Made by a program: the position numbers and the translations under genes
Shown: piece by piece, positions 55,040-63,476 of the stretch
How positions within the stretch are numbered: position 1 is the first letter of the stretch
Layout: each line of letters begins with the position of its first letter
The notes under the pieces: model-generated
The model's input: only the letters and a program-made list of their open reading frames with translations
Databases searched by the model: none
What the model was told of the DNA's origin: nothing
From: Pirellula sp.
GTDB taxonomy: Bacteria > Planctomycetota > Planctomycetia > Pirellulales > Lacipirellulaceae
Reading direction: 5' to 3'
Assembly: GCA_013822725.1 (NCBI GenBank)
Contig: PNKX01000017.1
Span: forward strand, 1 to 64,000
Length of the DNA: 64,000 nucleotides

Positions 55040-56035
55040 ATGGCAGTTGCACTTTTCCCGCTGGCGGCCCCTGACATGACGCAGGCGCTGCTGATCGGCG
55101 GCATTCTCATCGGCGTCGTCGGGCTGTTGGTCATCCTGGCGGTGATTCTCAACTTCGGCGGCTTGTGGATTCGCGCCTACACGTCGAACGCGCGGGTCAG
55201 CTTCTTCGAGTTGATCGGCATGAAGCTGCGGCAAGTGAACGCCAGCACGATCGTCGACGGCAAGATCATGGCGATGCAAGCTGGCGTGGGAACAGATCCT
55301 GAAACCGGCATTACGACCCGCCGGCTGGAAGCGCACTACCTCGCCGGCGGCGACGTGCCGCGGGTGATCAACGCGATCATTGCGGCGCAGCGGGCCGACA
55401 TCGACCTCGACTTCGATCGCGCCGCGGCGATCGATCTGGCCGGCCGAGACGTGCTGGACGCCGTGCGGACGAGCGTCTATCCCAAGGTGATCGACTGCCC
55501 CGACCCGGCCAAGTCGCCGCGGACGACGCTGAGCGCCGTGGCCCGCAATGGCGTTGAACTCAAGATTCGCGCCCGGGTGACGGTGCGGACCAATCTCGCA
55601 CAGCTGATTGGCGGCGCCACCGAGGACACGATCATCGCCCGGGTCGGCGAGGGAATCATCACATCGATCGGCTCGGCCGCCAATCACCTCGAAGTGATGG
55701 AAAACCCTGACCGCATTTCGAAGGCAGTGCTCCAACGCGGACTCGACGCCCACACGGCGTTCGAGATCGTGTCGATCGACATCGCCGACATCGACGTCGG
55801 CGAGAACATCGGCGCTCGCCTCCAGGCGGATCAGGCCGAGGCCGACACGCGAATGGCCCAAGCGCTCGCCGAACAACGGCGAGCGAACGCGATTGCCCTG
55901 GAGCAAGAGATGCGCGCTAACGTCGCGGCGAATCGCGCGGGCGTGCTATTGGCCCAAGCGGAAGTGCCGCGAGCGATGGCTGAGGCGTTCCGGCAAGGGA
56001 ACTTGGAGCGGAGCGGCTCGAATGGTTCGCAATGA
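55040..56035 (+). CDS. floA: flotillin-like protein FloA, copy 2
   Basis: A 331-residue FloA paralogue. Membrane segments lie at about 12-35 ([20 protein letters not shown]). It has [60 protein letters not shown] and [20 protein letters not shown], matching copy 1 at 29849 through most of the PHB-like domain. The C-terminus ends [12 protein letters not shown] and lacks the longer tail of copy 1. No NfeD gene is next to it, unlike copy 1. A start at 55076 (MTQALLIGG) is possible. The window thus holds two FloA genes about 25 kb apart. Confidence 0.94.
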
Positions 56036-56119: not shown

Positions 56120-56698
56120 CTAGTTTGCGTCCAGCGCGTAGTCGAAGAGTATATACTCCATCGATGGAGATCCATCTTCCGTTTTCGACTGCAATTCTTC
56201 CACGAGCTTCCAGCGCTGACCGTCGTAGGAGAGCGGATACTCAACCACCTCGACCGATTTCTCGTCTTCGACGACGAGCGGCTTCCTAGTTTCGTCAGAC
56301 GGCTCTTCGCCGGACTCTTCGAGTTCCGCCGCGAACTTAGCCTGTGAGGCGTCGTTCATTGCTCGCGGAGCCAAAGCGCGCGTCGTCTCAATGAAGACCA
56401 CCGCCTCGGGCAACGCCGATCCAGCGGAAGCCGGCAGCAGCTTGTGGTAAGCGCGCCGCTCGGAAATGACGCCCGAACCCGACGCGGCTTGGGCCGTCTC
56501 GATTGCGGAATCAAGGCGTTGCATCACACGCGCCAGCTTCCCTTCCGGCGTGTCATTGGGGGGCAATGCCGGAACGGACGGAATGTTCGACGGCTTGCTG
56601 CAACCGATCTGCAGTGGAAGCGCCAGAGCCATGCAGACCGCCCCCGCGATCCCCACGCGTGCAACGACGCTACTCGCAAATGCGGTCGCCATACCCAT
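56120..56698 (-). CDS. putative lipoprotein of unknown function
   Basis: A 192-residue protein. Its signal peptide (about 8-35) ends LPLQIGCSKPS, a lipobox-like sequence with Cys at about residue 33; the -3 residue is Gln instead of the usual aliphatic one, so lipidation is uncertain. The mature part is acidic, with two regions: LPPNDTPEGKLARVMQRLDS, and SVEVVEYPLSYDGQRWKLVE near the C-terminus. No domain is recognised. It lies downstream of the DPF-motif gene on the same strand (99 nt apart) and convergent with floA copy 2. Confidence 0.65.
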   Translation of the reverse strand: MGMATAFASSVVARVGIAGAVCMALALPLQIGCSKPSNIPSVPALPPNDTPEGKLARVMQRLDSAIETAQAASGSGVISERRAYHKLLPASAGSALPEAVVFIETTRALAPRAMNDASQAKFAAELEESGEEPSDETRKPLVVEDEKSVEVVEYPLSYDGQRWKLVEELQSKTEDGSPSMEYILFDYALDAN

Positions 56699-56797
56699 CA
56701 AAGAATTCCTATACGAACGCGAGTACGTGAACACGACGCGCAGTCCGCTGGAAATCCAGGGCGGCATCGACTGGGAACGCGAAGCGATTGCTCGCTA

Positions 56798-58717
56798 CTA
56801 AAATCCGCCGAATGGATCTTCTTCTGTCTCGGCCGGAGCGTCTTCGGCAGGCTTCTCCTCTGCCGGCTTGTCTGCAGCGTCGGCGTCGGCGCCCTCTTCA
56901 GCAGGAGCCTCGTCTGCAGCACCTTCTGCGGCCGGTGCGGCGTCTTCAGTCGCGGGCTCTTCGGTCGCAGCTTCGCCAAACGGATCGTCTCCCGCTTCTG
57001 TCGCCGGTTCGGCAGCTTCAGCTGATTCCGCCGGAGCCTCCGCTGGGGCATCGCTCGCGGCTGTACCGAAGGGATCATCTTCAGTCGCCGGCGCCGTTTC
57101 GCCAAAGGGATCAGACTCGGCGGCCTCGGCGGGCGTCGACTCTTCAGCGGCCATCGGCTCTTCCGCAGTTGCAGAGTCGCCAAAAGGATCCGCTTCCGCA
57201 GCAGCGGGCTCTTCTGCAGTTGGTTCAGCGGTCGCGGCCGGTTCCGTCGCGGCGGCTTCAGCGGCAGGCGGCTCATCGGCGGGAATGCCCAGCGCCGGGT
57301 CTGCAGCGAAGGGGTCGCTAGGTTGTTGCTCTTCCTTCTCTTCGGCGGTCTCTTCCTCGAAGAGTTCATCGGTAGCGCTGGCGCCGCCGAGTTCGGTGGC
57401 AGTGTCCGCTTCGACTGGCTCAGCGGCAGGCTCGTCCGCGATCATCTCTTGCGGGGGCGTTTCGCCAAAGGGATTCGCGGCATCGACCGTGTCGCTGGGC
57501 GTCGTGGAGCCTTCAGCCGCAGCCGCTTCGTCGGCGGGGAGAGCGAAGGGATCGCCAGCGTCGCCGGCCGCTGGAGCAGCCGTTTCTGCCGGCGACTCGG
57601 TCGCGGCGTCGGGTGCGCCAAACAGGCTGTCAGCGGCAGCGGGCGCTTCTTCAGCGGGAGCCGCAGCCGGGGCGACCTCTTCAGTCATCGGAGCCGCTTC
57701 CGCACCAAAAGGATCGGCTTCCGCCGTCTCGGCTGGCGTCGCCGGTTCGATGGCGGCGGCGGGTTCGGTAGCCGCAGGAGTCTCCGCTGGCGTGCCGAAT
57801 GGGTCGGCCGAGGGATCAGCAGTCGTTTCCGCTGGCGTGGCAGGTTCAACGGCCGGAGCGGGGTCGGCTGCGGGAGTCCCTTCGGCGCCGAACGGATCGA
57901 CGTCTGACGCTGGCTCTACAGCGGGGGGCGTCGGTTCGACGACGACCGAAGTTTCAGCAGCAGGTTCTGCAGCGGCGCCAAACGGATCGCTGTCCGCCGG
58001 TGCGGCAGGGGGCTCGGCAGGCGCCGGTGCGGGAGTTTCGGCAGCGCCAAAAGGATCGCTTTCAGCGGCAGGGGCGACGGCGGGAGCGGCCGCCTCTTCA
58101 ACCAATGCGGGTTGCGGCGTCGACGGCGCGGCGGGGGCGGCCAAGGCTGGCGGCGACATGGCAGGAATCGCGGCTGCTGCCGGCGCGGCTGGCGGCGACG
58201 CTAACTTGCCGAGATCGGCCGGCGTTTCATTGCGAAGGACTTGCTGCTCGCGGCTCTGCAGTTGCTCGTAGCGAGTTTGCGTCAGCGAATGATTTTTTTG
58301 GGCCTGTTGAATACGGGCTTGGCGACGGTAGCGCTCGACAAGCTGTCGATTCGATCCCTGCACGCGGCTCAGGGCTTGGCCGACCGCCCCGGAAGCGCCC
58401 GGGTCGCGAGCTTCAAGCGAGGCTCCGACGGCGAGGTCTTGCTCGGCTTCCGTCTGGCGTCCTGCGCGGAGCCGGGCCAGAGCGCGATAGTAGTAAACGC
58501 GAGGGTCGGTCGAACCGGCGTCAATGACCTGCGAAAACTGATCGTCCGAGAGCCAAACCTGGCCGCCGAAATAGTTGTGGACTCCGCGACCGTAAATCTC
58601 AGTCAACTCAGGCGAGTCCTGAGCGACGGCCGGTCGCGACGACAGAGCGACGACCAGCAGGCCGCCTGCCAAAGAGAACGCAGAAACACGGAGCGAACGA
58701 GCGACGCAACGATTCAT
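56798..58717 (-). CDS. secreted protein with twelve DPF motifs and TPR-like N-terminal domain
   Basis: A 639-residue protein with a signal peptide (cleavage near AVAQD, residue 33). Residues 35-160 form a short helical TPR-like domain (DQFSQVIDAGSTDPRVYYYR, ALARLRAGRQTEAEQDLAVG). The rest is a low-complexity, acidic Ala/Glu/Pro region with ten DPFG motifs and two DPFA motifs, plus single NPFG and SLFG variants, spaced about 10-80 residues apart; the protein ends EEDPFGGF. Such regular Asp-Pro-Phe spacing is not random for this composition. It may be a binding array, but no partner is known. It precedes the putative lipoprotein gene. Confidence 0.85.
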   Translation of the reverse strand: MNRCVARSLRVSAFSLAGGLLVVALSSRPAVAQDSPELTEIYGRGVHNYFGGQVWLSDDQFSQVIDAGSTDPRVYYYRALARLRAGRQTEAEQDLAVGASLEARDPGASGAVGQALSRVQGSNRQLVERYRRQARIQQAQKNHSLTQTRYEQLQSREQQVLRNETPADLGKLASPPAAPAAAAIPAMSPPALAAPAAPSTPQPALVEEAAAPAVAPAAESDPFGAAETPAPAPAEPPAAPADSDPFGAAAEPAAETSVVVEPTPPAVEPASDVDPFGAEGTPAADPAPAVEPATPAETTADPSADPFGTPAETPAATEPAAAIEPATPAETAEADPFGAEAAPMTEEVAPAAAPAEEAPAAADSLFGAPDAATESPAETAAPAAGDAGDPFALPADEAAAAEGSTTPSDTVDAANPFGETPPQEMIADEPAAEPVEADTATELGGASATDELFEEETAEEKEEQQPSDPFAADPALGIPADEPPAAEAAATEPAATAEPTAEEPAAAEADPFGDSATAEEPMAAEESTPAEAAESDPFGETAPATEDDPFGTAASDAPAEAPAESAEAAEPATEAGDDPFGEAATEEPATEDAAPAAEGAADEAPAEEGADADAADKPAEEKPAEDAPAETEEDPFGGF

Positions 58718-58997: not shown

Positions 58998-61900
58998 TCA
59001 CTGAGCCTGGGCGGTCGCCCCCGCGGCAGCGGCCTGTTCGATTTTCTTCGTGAACCCCTCCAAATCCTGCTGTTCTAGCTTCGAAACCGCATCCGGCCCG
59101 ATGCCCTCGGCCTGAGCCTGCTTCCAAGCGGCCGCCGCGCCCGCTGCGTCGCCGGCTCCTAATTGGGCTGCCGCCAAGTGATAGTGCTTGCTGGCCGTGG
59201 GGTTCATTTTGATCGCTTGTTTCATATCCTCAACGGCAAGGGGATATTGCTGCTGCTTGAGGTAAACGAGCGCGCGGGTGTCGAGGATGTCGGAAATTGG
59301 ACCGATCAGCTCAATCGCCTGATTCACGGAATTGAGAGCCAACTCCAGATCTTGGGGCGTCTTGCTCTTCAGCGCGAGGATGAACGCCAAATTGTTGAGC
59401 GCCGTGGCGCGCACCAACCCCGGAACGTCGTCGCGGGCGAGGAGCGTTTTGTAGGCGCTGATGCTTTCATCAAACTTCTCTTGAACCTCAAGCATCTCCG
59501 CTTCGAGCACCAAGCGACGGGCCGATTCTGGATCGTCGCGCAAGCCGCTGCGAACGATACGGTCGACTTCGGCGTCGAGCTTGGCTGGATCTTCGTCGCG
59601 ACGTTTGCGCAGCACTTCGACGGCAATCCGCATGGCATCGTCCATATTCTGCGGCGCCAACGAGCGCAGGCTCGCCAGCCCTTCATCGACGTTGCCGTAA
59701 AGGGCGTTCATCCGCGCCAACTCCAAACCGGCGTCGGGAGCGCGGCGTGCGTATTCTTGCAGAAGCGTCAGGGCATATTCATGGTCGCCTGCACCGTCCG
59801 CCGTTTGAGCCAGCCCGCGAATAAACTTCAGTTGGTCTTCGGTAAGGCGAGTGAAATCGGGCGTCATTGCTTTGAGCATGTTGCGCACTTCGTCTTTGTC
59901 GCCGCGGACCGAGGCGAGACGCAGCCGAAGTTCATTGATCGCCGGAGCTAATTCCGGTTTTCCCCCGAGCCGCGTAATGCGCAATTCGGCTTCATTAAAA
60001 TCCTTTCGACCGATCAGCATCGACGCATACGCCGTCTGCAGTCGGGCGTCATTAGGGAACTTTCCGATGGCGTCGAGCATCTGTTGCTTCGCCGCCTCCC
60101 ATTCGCCAAGGTCGTAAAGCAGGTGGCCCAGCTGCAGTTCGCGTTCAGGCGTCAGCCCGCCGCGCATCACTTTCACGTTCCGCAACGCATCAATTGCCCG
60201 CTGCCGTGATACGGGGTCGCCGCGGAGGCTCAGCAAGTCAACGAGCTGATCGAAGTCTTCAGGCGTGCCAGTTTTTCCCTCGACAGCAGCGCTCAGCAAT
60301 TGTTCGGCGCGGACCGAATCGCTCCGATCCCCCGTGGCGGCTAAGAGCTTGGCAGCTTGACGCCGGGCCCAAGGTCCGTTTGGATCGCCCTCTTTGAGCT
60401 TCCCTTCGTAGGAGGCTTTCAGCAGTTTATTCAAGTAGACGGCCGCTTTGCCGCGGTTATTCTCGTTGGCGGCAATCCACTGCAAATAGAACTCGGCGAG
60501 CCGCCGTGAAACGTTTGGATCGTCTTCTCGACCCGCATACGCGGACAGATAAATGTCCTCCGCTTCCTGCCAGCGCGACTGAAGCTCGTAGTACTTGCCC
60601 GTCAGTAGCGGCAGATACTCGTCATCGAGCGCGAGGAACGCTTCACGCAACGTACTCTCGACGTCATTAGGACGCTTTGCTTGAAGGTACAGCGTCACCA
60701 GCCGGGTCCACGCATCGGGATCCTCGGGGTTAATCGCAATCGCCTTCTTCATCGCCGCTTCCGCCGCCTCGGGCTTCTGCGCGCGCACGGCAATGTCGGC
60801 GAACCAGGTTTGAGCCGCGGGATCTTCGGGTTTCGATTTAGCGACCTTTTCAGCCTCGATAAACGCCTTATCGGTCTCGCCAACCGCCGCCAGCACGTCA
60901 GCAGCCGTGTTCCCTAGGACGGCCGACCAGTTGACCATCGGAATGCGTTCCATGCGCTGACGGGCTTCCTGCGCTCGTCCCCGCTCGGCCAACAGACGAA
61001 TCTGCAGCGCCAATGCATTAAGATTCGACGCGCCTAGCTCGAACGCTTTTTCGAAGCTCTTCAGCGCCTGGTCGACGTTGTTGTCGAGCACTAGCGCCAA
61101 CTGCCCTTGGGAAACCTGCAGTTCCGCCAACCCGGGCCGCTGCTTAATGGCCGCGTCGAGCATTTGGCGTCCCGCCTCAAGCTCCTCCTTCGAGATCTTA
61201 CTGTTCGCGAAACCGGAAATGCGTCGCTTTACTTCGGTCAGCACATAACCGGGATCGTTTTTGCTTTTGACGATCTCCAAGATCTTCTCTTGGGCGGCGA
61301 TCATGCCCGGATCATCGTTCTGCTTCAGGGCGAGTTCAAAGAGCGCATTTCGCGTCGGCAAACTGTTGGGAGACAACGCGACGGCCTGCTCCAGCGCGCG
61401 CCGCGCTTGAGAGACGTCTCCCAGCTGTTCGAACCGGGCGGCGACGGCCGACCAGACAAGCGCTTTCTGATTATCGGGAAACTCATCCATCCCATCCGTC
61501 GCGGCGCTCAACTGCGCCGGCAGCTGCTCGTCACGAATGGCGAAGAGCAGATCGATGCGCAACGTCCGAAACGCGGCGGAATCTTTCCCCTTCTTCACAA
61601 TCTTGTCGAGAAGTGCGAGCGCCTTCGCCGGACCACTGTCGGGCTCCTGGGCGAGCAAACGAATCGCCTGGATTTGCACCGTCGGATCGTTCGGGTCAAT
61701 CGCGTATGCCTTCGTGATAGCCTCGCGAGCTTGCGTGAACAGAGCCTTCTGCTCCGCCGGATCATTGGTTTCAACGGCCCGCATGGCGAACATTTGACCG
61801 CGCAGAAGTTCCTTGCGCGACGAGGCCCACGTCGTCGGCACCACCCGCTTCGACGCTTCCGCGTCAATGTAGGCGTCGATCTTCGAGCCAAGAGCGTCCC

Positions 61901-63476
61901 AGTTCTGTTCTGCCTTGGGCTTCGCGAGCATGTTCTTGATTTCGCGATCGAGCTCGAGCATGCCCTCTTCGGGTTGATCCTGACCCATCATGGCTGAAAT
62001 CTGCTCAAACCCCGACTTGGCTTGCGGCAAGTCGGGATTGATCGCCAGCGACGCTTTGTACGCTTCTAGCGCCAAGTCGAACTGGCCCAACTGCGTATGG
62101 CAGAAACCCTGAATCGCCGCCGCCAGGGCCTGCAGTTCGGAGAAGCCGAGCAAGCGCGGCCGTACGTTGCTGAGTTGAGCCGCCGCGTCGGCCCACTTCT
62201 CATCGACCGCAGACATCCGGGCCTGATGAAAGTCGGCCACGGCGTTGACGCGTTCATTATCCAATTCTCGCAGCGCCGCGATCTCTTTCTTAACGCCTTC
62301 AAAGTCTTTCTTGCTGATCAGGACTTCGACCTTAATATTGGAGAGCCCCAAGGCGGCGGGAAGCCCCAGACGGTCGTACTTGGTCTTCATGGGAAACGCC
62401 GCCAACCCCTTCTCGACGATGGCGAGGGCGTCCTCCGGCTTCTCCCGAAACGTCTCGATGCGCGCCGCACGTTCGAAGAAATCGATCCGCTCGGGATACT
62501 TCTCCATCCCCTCCGAAAAGTACTTGGCCGCTTCGGCCAAATGCTTTTTCGCATCCTCGCGAAGTTGATCTGCGTTGTCGCCCTTGGCGTCGGCGATCGC
62601 CAACTGGAAATCGGCAATCGCTTCCGCGCCCTTGGCGTTCAAGACGGAAGCGTCGTCCGCCTTCAAAGCGAACGCCTTATCGAGCGCCGCGCGAGCCTCT
62701 TCGTTCTTACCAGTAGTCTTCAGAAACTGATACTGCATCACATAGGCGTCGGTCGATTCCGGATTGGCGACAGTCATCTGATCGATGACCCGCCGCGCCA
62801 TCTCAGGCTCGTTCTCATTGAGGTACGAGGCCAACATGGCGTAAACCAGCGGTTTCTCAGGCGCCTCCGCCTTCGTAACGTCAAACGCATCGGTTTGCTG
62901 GTCATATCCAATCAGTTTGTAGGATTCACGCGCCGCCTCCGCCGGCTTTTGCGTTGCGAACAGGCATTGCGCATGCAGTGCCTTCAATTCAGGATCGCTG
63001 AAGCCTTGATCAATAAGCTGTTTGATGTTGCCAAGGGCTAGGTCAGGCGCACCGAACTTTGTCTGAATGTCGACCAGCTTCCGACGGAGCTTGGCGTTAG
63101 CTCCTCGCTGTTGCTTCGCAATCTCGGGATCGGTTTCGTCGATGTCGCCCGTATCGCGAACCACTGCCACCAAGGTCTGAAAAGCCTTGCCGCGAAGCTC
63201 GGGTTCCATATCCTCCTGTTCGGTCACTTTCACCGCGACTTCGCCCAGCCGCACGCGGGCGTCGAACTCATCGGACCGCAGCTGGACGTACTGCTGCAAA
63301 CTCTCGTATGCCTCTTCCAAGTTGCCCGAAGCTTCCGCCGCATCCGCTTTCGCGAGCAATCGAGAAGCGTTTCGATCGACCTGAAACCGCCACAGGAAAA
63401 AAGCAGCGACGGCGGCAATGGCGCCGCCGACGACCAACCCGAAAAGCAGTGGATAATTGACGCGGTAGCGTTGCAT
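58998..63476 (-). CDS. very large membrane-anchored TPR protein
   Basis: A 1492-residue protein. One N-terminal transmembrane segment (about 10-30, LLFGLVVGGAIAAVAAFFLW) is followed by TPR-like helical repeats over almost the whole length. Examples are NLEEAYESLQQYVQLRSDEF, QFDLALEAYKASLAINPDLP, DVSQARRALEQAVALSPNSL and QYPLAVEDMKQAIKMNPTAS. No enzymatic domain was found. The membrane anchor at the N-terminus and absence of a cleavable signal suggest a large periplasmic scaffold. The DPF-motif gene follows after 280 nt, so the two could be co-transcribed. A long leader (about 280 nt) with a promoter at 63761-63788 precedes it. Confidence 0.88.
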   Translation of the reverse strand: MQRYRVNYPLLFGLVVGGAIAAVAAFFLWRFQVDRNASRLLAKADAAEASGNLEEAYESLQQYVQLRSDEFDARVRLGEVAVKVTEQEDMEPELRGKAFQTLVAVVRDTGDIDETDPEIAKQQRGANAKLRRKLVDIQTKFGAPDLALGNIKQLIDQGFSDPELKALHAQCLFATQKPAEAARESYKLIGYDQQTDAFDVTKAEAPEKPLVYAMLASYLNENEPEMARRVIDQMTVANPESTDAYVMQYQFLKTTGKNEEARAALDKAFALKADDASVLNAKGAEAIADFQLAIADAKGDNADQLREDAKKHLAEAAKYFSEGMEKYPERIDFFERAARIETFREKPEDALAIVEKGLAAFPMKTKYDRLGLPAALGLSNIKVEVLISKKDFEGVKKEIAALRELDNERVNAVADFHQARMSAVDEKWADAAAQLSNVRPRLLGFSELQALAAAIQGFCHTQLGQFDLALEAYKASLAINPDLPQAKSGFEQISAMMGQDQPEEGMLELDREIKNMLAKPKAEQNWDALGSKIDAYIDAEASKRVVPTTWASSRKELLRGQMFAMRAVETNDPAEQKALFTQAREAITKAYAIDPNDPTVQIQAIRLLAQEPDSGPAKALALLDKIVKKGKDSAAFRTLRIDLLFAIRDEQLPAQLSAATDGMDEFPDNQKALVWSAVAARFEQLGDVSQARRALEQAVALSPNSLPTRNALFELALKQNDDPGMIAAQEKILEIVKSKNDPGYVLTEVKRRISGFANSKISKEELEAGRQMLDAAIKQRPGLAELQVSQGQLALVLDNNVDQALKSFEKAFELGASNLNALALQIRLLAERGRAQEARQRMERIPMVNWSAVLGNTAADVLAAVGETDKAFIEAEKVAKSKPEDPAAQTWFADIAVRAQKPEAAEAAMKKAIAINPEDPDAWTRLVTLYLQAKRPNDVESTLREAFLALDDEYLPLLTGKYYELQSRWQEAEDIYLSAYAGREDDPNVSRRLAEFYLQWIAANENNRGKAAVYLNKLLKASYEGKLKEGDPNGPWARRQAAKLLAATGDRSDSVRAEQLLSAAVEGKTGTPEDFDQLVDLLSLRGDPVSRQRAIDALRNVKVMRGGLTPERELQLGHLLYDLGEWEAAKQQMLDAIGKFPNDARLQTAYASMLIGRKDFNEAELRITRLGGKPELAPAINELRLRLASVRGDKDEVRNMLKAMTPDFTRLTEDQLKFIRGLAQTADGAGDHEYALTLLQEYARRAPDAGLELARMNALYGNVDEGLASLRSLAPQNMDDAMRIAVEVLRKRRDEDPAKLDAEVDRIVRSGLRDDPESARRLVLEAEMLEVQEKFDESISAYKTLLARDDVPGLVRATALNNLAFILALKSKTPQDLELALNSVNQAIELIGPISDILDTRALVYLKQQQYPLAVEDMKQAIKMNPTASKHYHLAAAQLGAGDAAGAAAAWKQAQAEGIGPDAVSKLEQQDLEGFTKKIEQAAAAGATAQAQ

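Follow-up and report, generated by a model that had tools for sequence, protein, structure and literature searches.

The endocytic proteins Eps15 and the epsins carry cytoplasmic arrays of DPF and NPF motifs, which are ligands of the AP2 appendage and the EH domain. FG-repeat nucleoporins hold spaced Phe-Gly motifs in disordered segments, with cohesive or low-charge spacers, and sit in a pore. The tip of SSB reads DDDIPF and is bound in a pocket. Recruitment of many partners by the SSB C-terminal tip has been described (PMC7145534). We analysed a window of 64,000 nucleotides (the whole stretch under study) from Pirellula sp., which encodes a protein with a disordered tail rich in DPF motifs, and compared this protein with the systems above.

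With the endocytic arrays the DPF-tail protein shares many DPF/NPF copies above chance and acidic disorder. However, those arrays are cytoplasmic, eukaryotic and have known readers, whereas the DPF-tail protein is bacterial and, judged by its sequence, exported. As in SSB, an acidic disordered tail carries a terminal P-F element (here ...EEDPFGGF). SSB, by contrast, binds DNA through an OB-fold in the cytoplasm and normally has one tip, while the carriers described here are a TPR protein and a propeller, both predicted to be exported, with 1 to ~20 copies; the head of the TPR protein has an all-helical TPR fold and not the OB-fold of SSB. Spaced Phe-Gly-containing motifs in a disordered tail are common to the DPF-tail protein and FG nucleoporins, which differ from it in that the DPF tail has a conserved D/N-P before F, strongly acidic spacers and a probable extracytoplasmic location. 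The head resembles the TPR domains of SGT, CHIP and Tah1, several of which bind acidic C-terminal peptides, and that of MamA, the likeness being one of fold only. The second carrier belongs to the fold family of BamB and other PQQ-like propellers (PF13360), and is set apart from BamB by its added DPF tail, which is not known from BamB.

Architecture of the DPF-tail protein and its locus

The DPF-tail gene (56798..58717, minus strand) encodes 639 residues and has relatives across nearly all Pirellulales. Residues 1-33 (58619..58717, minus strand) were judged by eye to be an N-terminal signal peptide, with a hydrophobic core followed by AVA|Q. Of 111 family members, 110 have a hydrophobic stretch upstream of the folded domain. 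The AVA|Q site and the conserved hydrophobic N-terminus suggest Sec export, in agreement with a preliminary description of this DNA that had called the protein exported.

That description captured the tail array but missed a folded, TPR-like head at about residues 34-165 (58223..58618, minus strand), which is supported by AlphaFold2, by matches to TPR folds and by invariant residues. The AlphaFold2 model, built from 54 sequences, has five helices and a long sixth one (mean pLDDT 90.4), with helical hairpins of the TPR kind. Its matches among solved structures are TPR domains, among them SGT, CHIP and Tah1 (PDB 2vyi, 3q47, 4cgu) and MamA (3asf), with Z of 11-12 over ~70-80 residues at ~16-20% identity; such Z values are common among helical repeats and indicate the fold alone, not the function. 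Pfam TPR families match the head of this member weakly, and one relative passes the cut-offs. A Pfam search with the whole 639-aa protein found no family, and an NCBIfam search with it gave a single very weak match below cut-off. As modelled, the head is thus an all-helical TPR fold. Residues D38, P39, R40, Y43, R45, D61, E69, L83, R85, Q87, G88, R91, E95 and R98 (domain numbering) are invariant among the 54 sequences, and Arg, Tyr and His positions are among those conserved in the head. Of 59 relatives at close or order level, 51 have a match to the head; the nearest named one is Lacipirellula limnantheis (head 89% identical). In a draw of 391 genomes from the phylum, strong head matches (E below ~1e–27) fall nearly all inside Pirellulales, and the weak ones outside the order resemble generic TPR matches.

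Residues 166-639 (56801..58222, minus strand) form the tail, which is rich in Ala, Pro and Glu (31% Ala) and acidic in nearly all blocks. Composition and charge thus bear out the long acidic disordered region reported before. On recount, the array is correct as first described, coordinates included, with 12 DPF (10 DPFG and 2 DPFA) and one NPFG, all on the minus strand. The DPFG copies are motif 1 at residue 221 (58049..58057), motif 2 at residue 244 (57980..57988), motif 3 at residue 274 (57890..57898), motif 4 at residue 305 (57797..57805), motif 5 at residue 335 (57707..57715), motif 8 at residue 510 (57182..57190), motif 9 at residue 536 (57104..57112), motif 10 at residue 548 (57068..57076), motif 11 at residue 578 (56978..56986) and the C-terminal motif 12 at residue 634 (56810..56818), which ends three residues short of the C-terminus (EEDPFGGF-COOH). 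The DPFA copies are motif 6 at residue 389 (57545..57553) and motif 7 at residue 468 (57308..57316), and between them lies NPFG at residue 415 (57467..57475). Motif spacing is regular, ~25-30 residues. [DN]PF holds 13 of the 16 Phe of the 479-aa tail, and the same tail has the near-variants DSLFG (F at 366) and DELF (F at 453). Shuffling, proposed earlier as a check on composition, was carried out on the tail 20,000 times: DPF is expected 0.21 times on average (maximum 4) against the 12 seen, and DPFG 0.012 times (maximum 1) against 10, so the count lies far beyond that of sequences of the same composition. The copies are written in unlike codons (GATCCTTTTGGC, GACCCATTCGGC, GATCCGTTCGGC and others), which rules out a recent DNA repeat as the origin of the array; hence, the array is kept at the protein level. 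In the source genome, DPF-coding sites cluster at this gene only, among the matches listed (the first 100 of 153). The array is not unique to the gene, since other carriers exist within Pirellulales.

In loci of the Lacipirellulaceae type, the gene of a 1492-aa TPR protein precedes the DPF-tail gene, which is followed by a gene for a small putative lipoprotein and, in convergent orientation, by FloA. In the window, the upstream neighbour is the 1492-aa protein (58998..63476, minus strand; Pfam TPR), membrane-anchored by an N-terminal segment and a candidate partner of the tail. Its best NCBIfam match is PrsT-like and far under cut-off. Downstream lie the gene of a 215-aa putative lipoprotein (56120..56767, minus strand; IGCSKPS, by eye) and the convergent flotillin-like FloA gene (55040..56035, plus strand; PF12127, E 2e–129). 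A lipoprotein-sized gene holds the same position in most Lacipirellulaceae-type loci, and a FloA gene is nearby in ~9 relatives. The neighbourhood is not maintained in other Pirellulales families and is therefore a lineage-specific lead to a partner at most. In those families, a ~760-970-aa protein of cluster c8 is often encoded 3' of the DPF-tail gene on the same strand; it follows the gene at eight loci (L073, L078, L090, L121, L125, L126, L127 and L137).

Motif selection in orthologues and on a second exported carrier

We compared the tails of 100 complete orthologues, a set that takes in a few remote members (97 are left at E below 1e–20). The tails contain 802 Phe, of which 549 lie within [DN]PF and 623 within [DN][PLAVI]F, whereas shuffles of the same tails give 19 and 45.7, respectively. 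[DN]-(P/L/A/V/I)-F thus accounts for about three quarters of the Phe in orthologue tails, a ~14-fold excess over shuffled tails. DPF is the commonest spelling (456), followed by NPF (73), DLF (48) and rarer ones. The motif is mostly followed by G, then by A, and the residue that precedes it tends to be Asp, Ala or Glu. Among three close species, identity is 67-92% at motif residues versus 33-60% in the remaining tail. The preliminary description had named, as evidence against its reading, orthologues of the same composition without DPF conservation; in the orthologues compared here the array is conserved. The [DN]PF motif is selected for in the tails of the TPR proteins.

Regular spacing of ~25-30 residues, the occurrence of up to ~20 copies and the F-G of many motifs could also be expected of stickers separated by spacers, with Phe motifs that cohere with one another or bind the envelope matrix in a condensed or gel-like layer, much as FG nucleoporins do, with no dedicated pocket. 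We consider this doubtful. Copies per orthologue range from 0 to ~20, but many relatives have a single motif or a pair, often at the extreme C-terminus, an arrangement better suited to a docking peptide than to a gel. Moreover, D/N-P is conserved about as well as the F of the motif in the three close species, and the strongly acidic spacers would repel each other.

A DNA pattern of two adjacent [DN]PFG units found more carriers in Pirellulales, while a reversed control pattern had almost no matches. The most widespread of these carriers is a BamB/PQQ-like beta-propeller, exported, present order-wide and unrelated to the TPR protein (PF13360, E 2.9e–24, 86.5 bits versus a cut-off of 27.6). Its tails end, for example, in ...DDNPFDTF, ...ENPFGF or ...MDNPFGN. 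In 32 propeller tails we found 85 motifs versus 3.9 expected from shuffles, and 30 of the 32 tails have at least one. Homologues outside Pirellulales mostly lack the motif (13 of 15; the other two each carry one NPF close to the end), which suggests that a propeller of older origin gained or retained the tail within the order. The TPR head is order-bound and motif tails are mostly so; hence, the two have nearly the same range. The propeller was not convincingly found in the source genome, which is 86% complete, and the pairing was therefore examined in relatives only.

Rarer carriers of [DN]PF arrays in Pirellulales include an STN/secretin-like protein (L197), another exported TPR protein (L193) and a membrane protein (L190). 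Outside the order, two kinase-like, apparently cytoplasmic proteins of planctomycete family f39 (L305, L306) have 27-32 near-tandem DPFG/DPFA copies. Proteins resembling outer-membrane porins, from planctomycete family f36 and its kin (L320, L323, L324, L325) have a DPF cluster directly after the signal peptide, as in EDPFADPFAEESSP...DDPFGDPFENP.

In 71 of 97 complete TPR relatives and in 28 of 32 propellers, a motif lies no more than 8 residues from the C-terminus. One could therefore expect a C-terminal sorting or assembly signal, recognized by machinery of export, of the outer membrane or of proteolysis, with the internal copies as spare duplicates. However, internal copies are also conserved, and some members have no terminal copy. 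The carriers are also few for a general signal. Among the 602 ORFs in 800 kb sampled from a genome of the same genus, such a tail occurs on the TPR protein and the propeller only; for this sample, exported proteins of the genus therefore do not generally carry the array. Around family loci, none of 882 non-family genes has at least three [DN]PF[GAS] and none ends in a motif, as compared with 42 of 64 family genes at the same loci that have such motif tails. A sorting signal of this kind is unlikely.

Covariation of the two tails

We compared the two proteins in 52 genomes where both are complete, with contrasts computed on a tree built from both folded domains. Motif number on the TPR protein follows that on the propeller (Spearman 0.64), also by independent contrasts (r = 0.46, P-value 6e–4; this and all P-values below are uncorrected for the number of tests). 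The correlation is weaker once tail length is controlled for: with GC and the lengths of both tails accounted for, r = 0.35 (P-value 0.014). Without the Blastopirellula-like family f15, r = 0.37 (P-value 0.013). The fraction of N versus D at the first motif position is correlated as well (r = 0.51, P-value 5e–4), and stays so after GC and the background N/D of the tails are accounted for (r = 0.49, P-value 0.0015). The D or N of the last motif is associated between the two proteins (table [[19,15],[1,8]], P-value 0.024). The spelling with L/I/V/A for P is marginal in this tree-controlled sample (r = 0.30, P-value 0.05); an earlier correlation of non-Pro spelling in 21 genomes had rested mainly on one genus. 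All three genomes with a motif-free TPR protein are motif-free on the propeller too (Fisher P-value 0.004). The genomes motif-free in both proteins are G038, G043 and G367 (L366/L365, L368/L367 and L157/L331). Six genomes have a propeller without the motif and a TPR protein with some, and in one (G057) the TPR protein has DAF and the propeller DPF.

We take covariation of this kind to mean that two unrelated proteins, both exported, are under a common selective pressure, of which a single reader would be the simplest source. It is possible that a lineage-level trait acts on both tails and that no reader exists, and motif number alone could track a genome-wide taste for disordered tails.

Composition bias, which the preliminary description had allowed as the cause of the array, is ruled out by the shuffles, by selective motif conservation in orthologues and by recurrence on an unrelated protein. 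If the motif had no function and arose from a biased low-complexity tail that evolves fast, the high Ala content and the strongly variable tail length would be accounted for; together with the covariation, however, the same three observations make this very unlikely. The array offers identical tripeptides in an acidic disordered region, but an eukaryote-type endocytic-adaptor array, in which DPF would bind an AP2-like appendage and NPF an EH-like domain, is extremely improbable, and the parallel drawn at first is not supported beyond its form: the protein is exported by sequence, the same tail occurs on another exported protein, Alpha_adaptin_C appendage (PF02296) and EH (PF12763) domains were found in 0 of 39 relatives' genomes (a weak result, since no control genome gave a match), and Boedeker et al. 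2017 present evidence inconsistent with endocytosis-like uptake in planctomycetes, with macromolecules in the periplasm (PMC5394234).

Probable docking tails in the envelope

The DPF tail is real, selected and shared, and undescribed as far as our searches reach. The open-access literature searched yielded no account of a DPF motif system in bacteria, and in a paper on nuclear pores in Gemmata we found no FG repeats.

We suggest that the tail is probably a set of multivalent short linear docking motifs on an exported TPR protein, recognized by a common reader outside the cytoplasm. The data thus favour the early suggestion of binding to a periplasmic or surface protein, the partner being a candidate only. 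The motif core would be [D/N]-P-F-[G/A/S] in an acidic context. Each Phe, with its flanking acids, would enter a pocket on one common extracytoplasmic reader, and several copies would add avidity, so that the carriers would be tethered into one envelope assembly. In the specific form that we hold most likely, the candidate reader is the Arg/Tyr-rich TPR head of the family itself, or the neighbouring TPR protein. The head resembles the peptide-binding TPR domains of SGT, CHIP and Tah1 with EEVD-type peptides, an analogy that makes it a candidate reader. A TPR reader would give a head-to-tail mesh that would capture the propeller too. The tail of a short orthologue modelled with AlphaFold2 is essentially undocked, with pLDDT 51-61, reaching 65-70 only at the end, where the last motif lies. 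More tentatively, the motifs could form an envelope-wide code, in which one periplasmic reader, possibly the TPR head, binds all co-evolving [DN]PF tails and builds a multivalent scaffold.

A short bait peptide (biotin-DAPAETEEDPFGGF) makes the docking idea cheaply testable, and a bacterial reading of the array replaces a loose eukaryotic analogy. To our knowledge, multivalent networks of short linear motifs have been described chiefly in the cytoplasm and nucleus of eukaryotes. If our reading is true, a co-evolving motif tail on unrelated exported proteins would constitute a docking system outside the cytoplasm across a whole bacterial order, in a phylum, the planctomycetes, whose unusual envelope is under debate.
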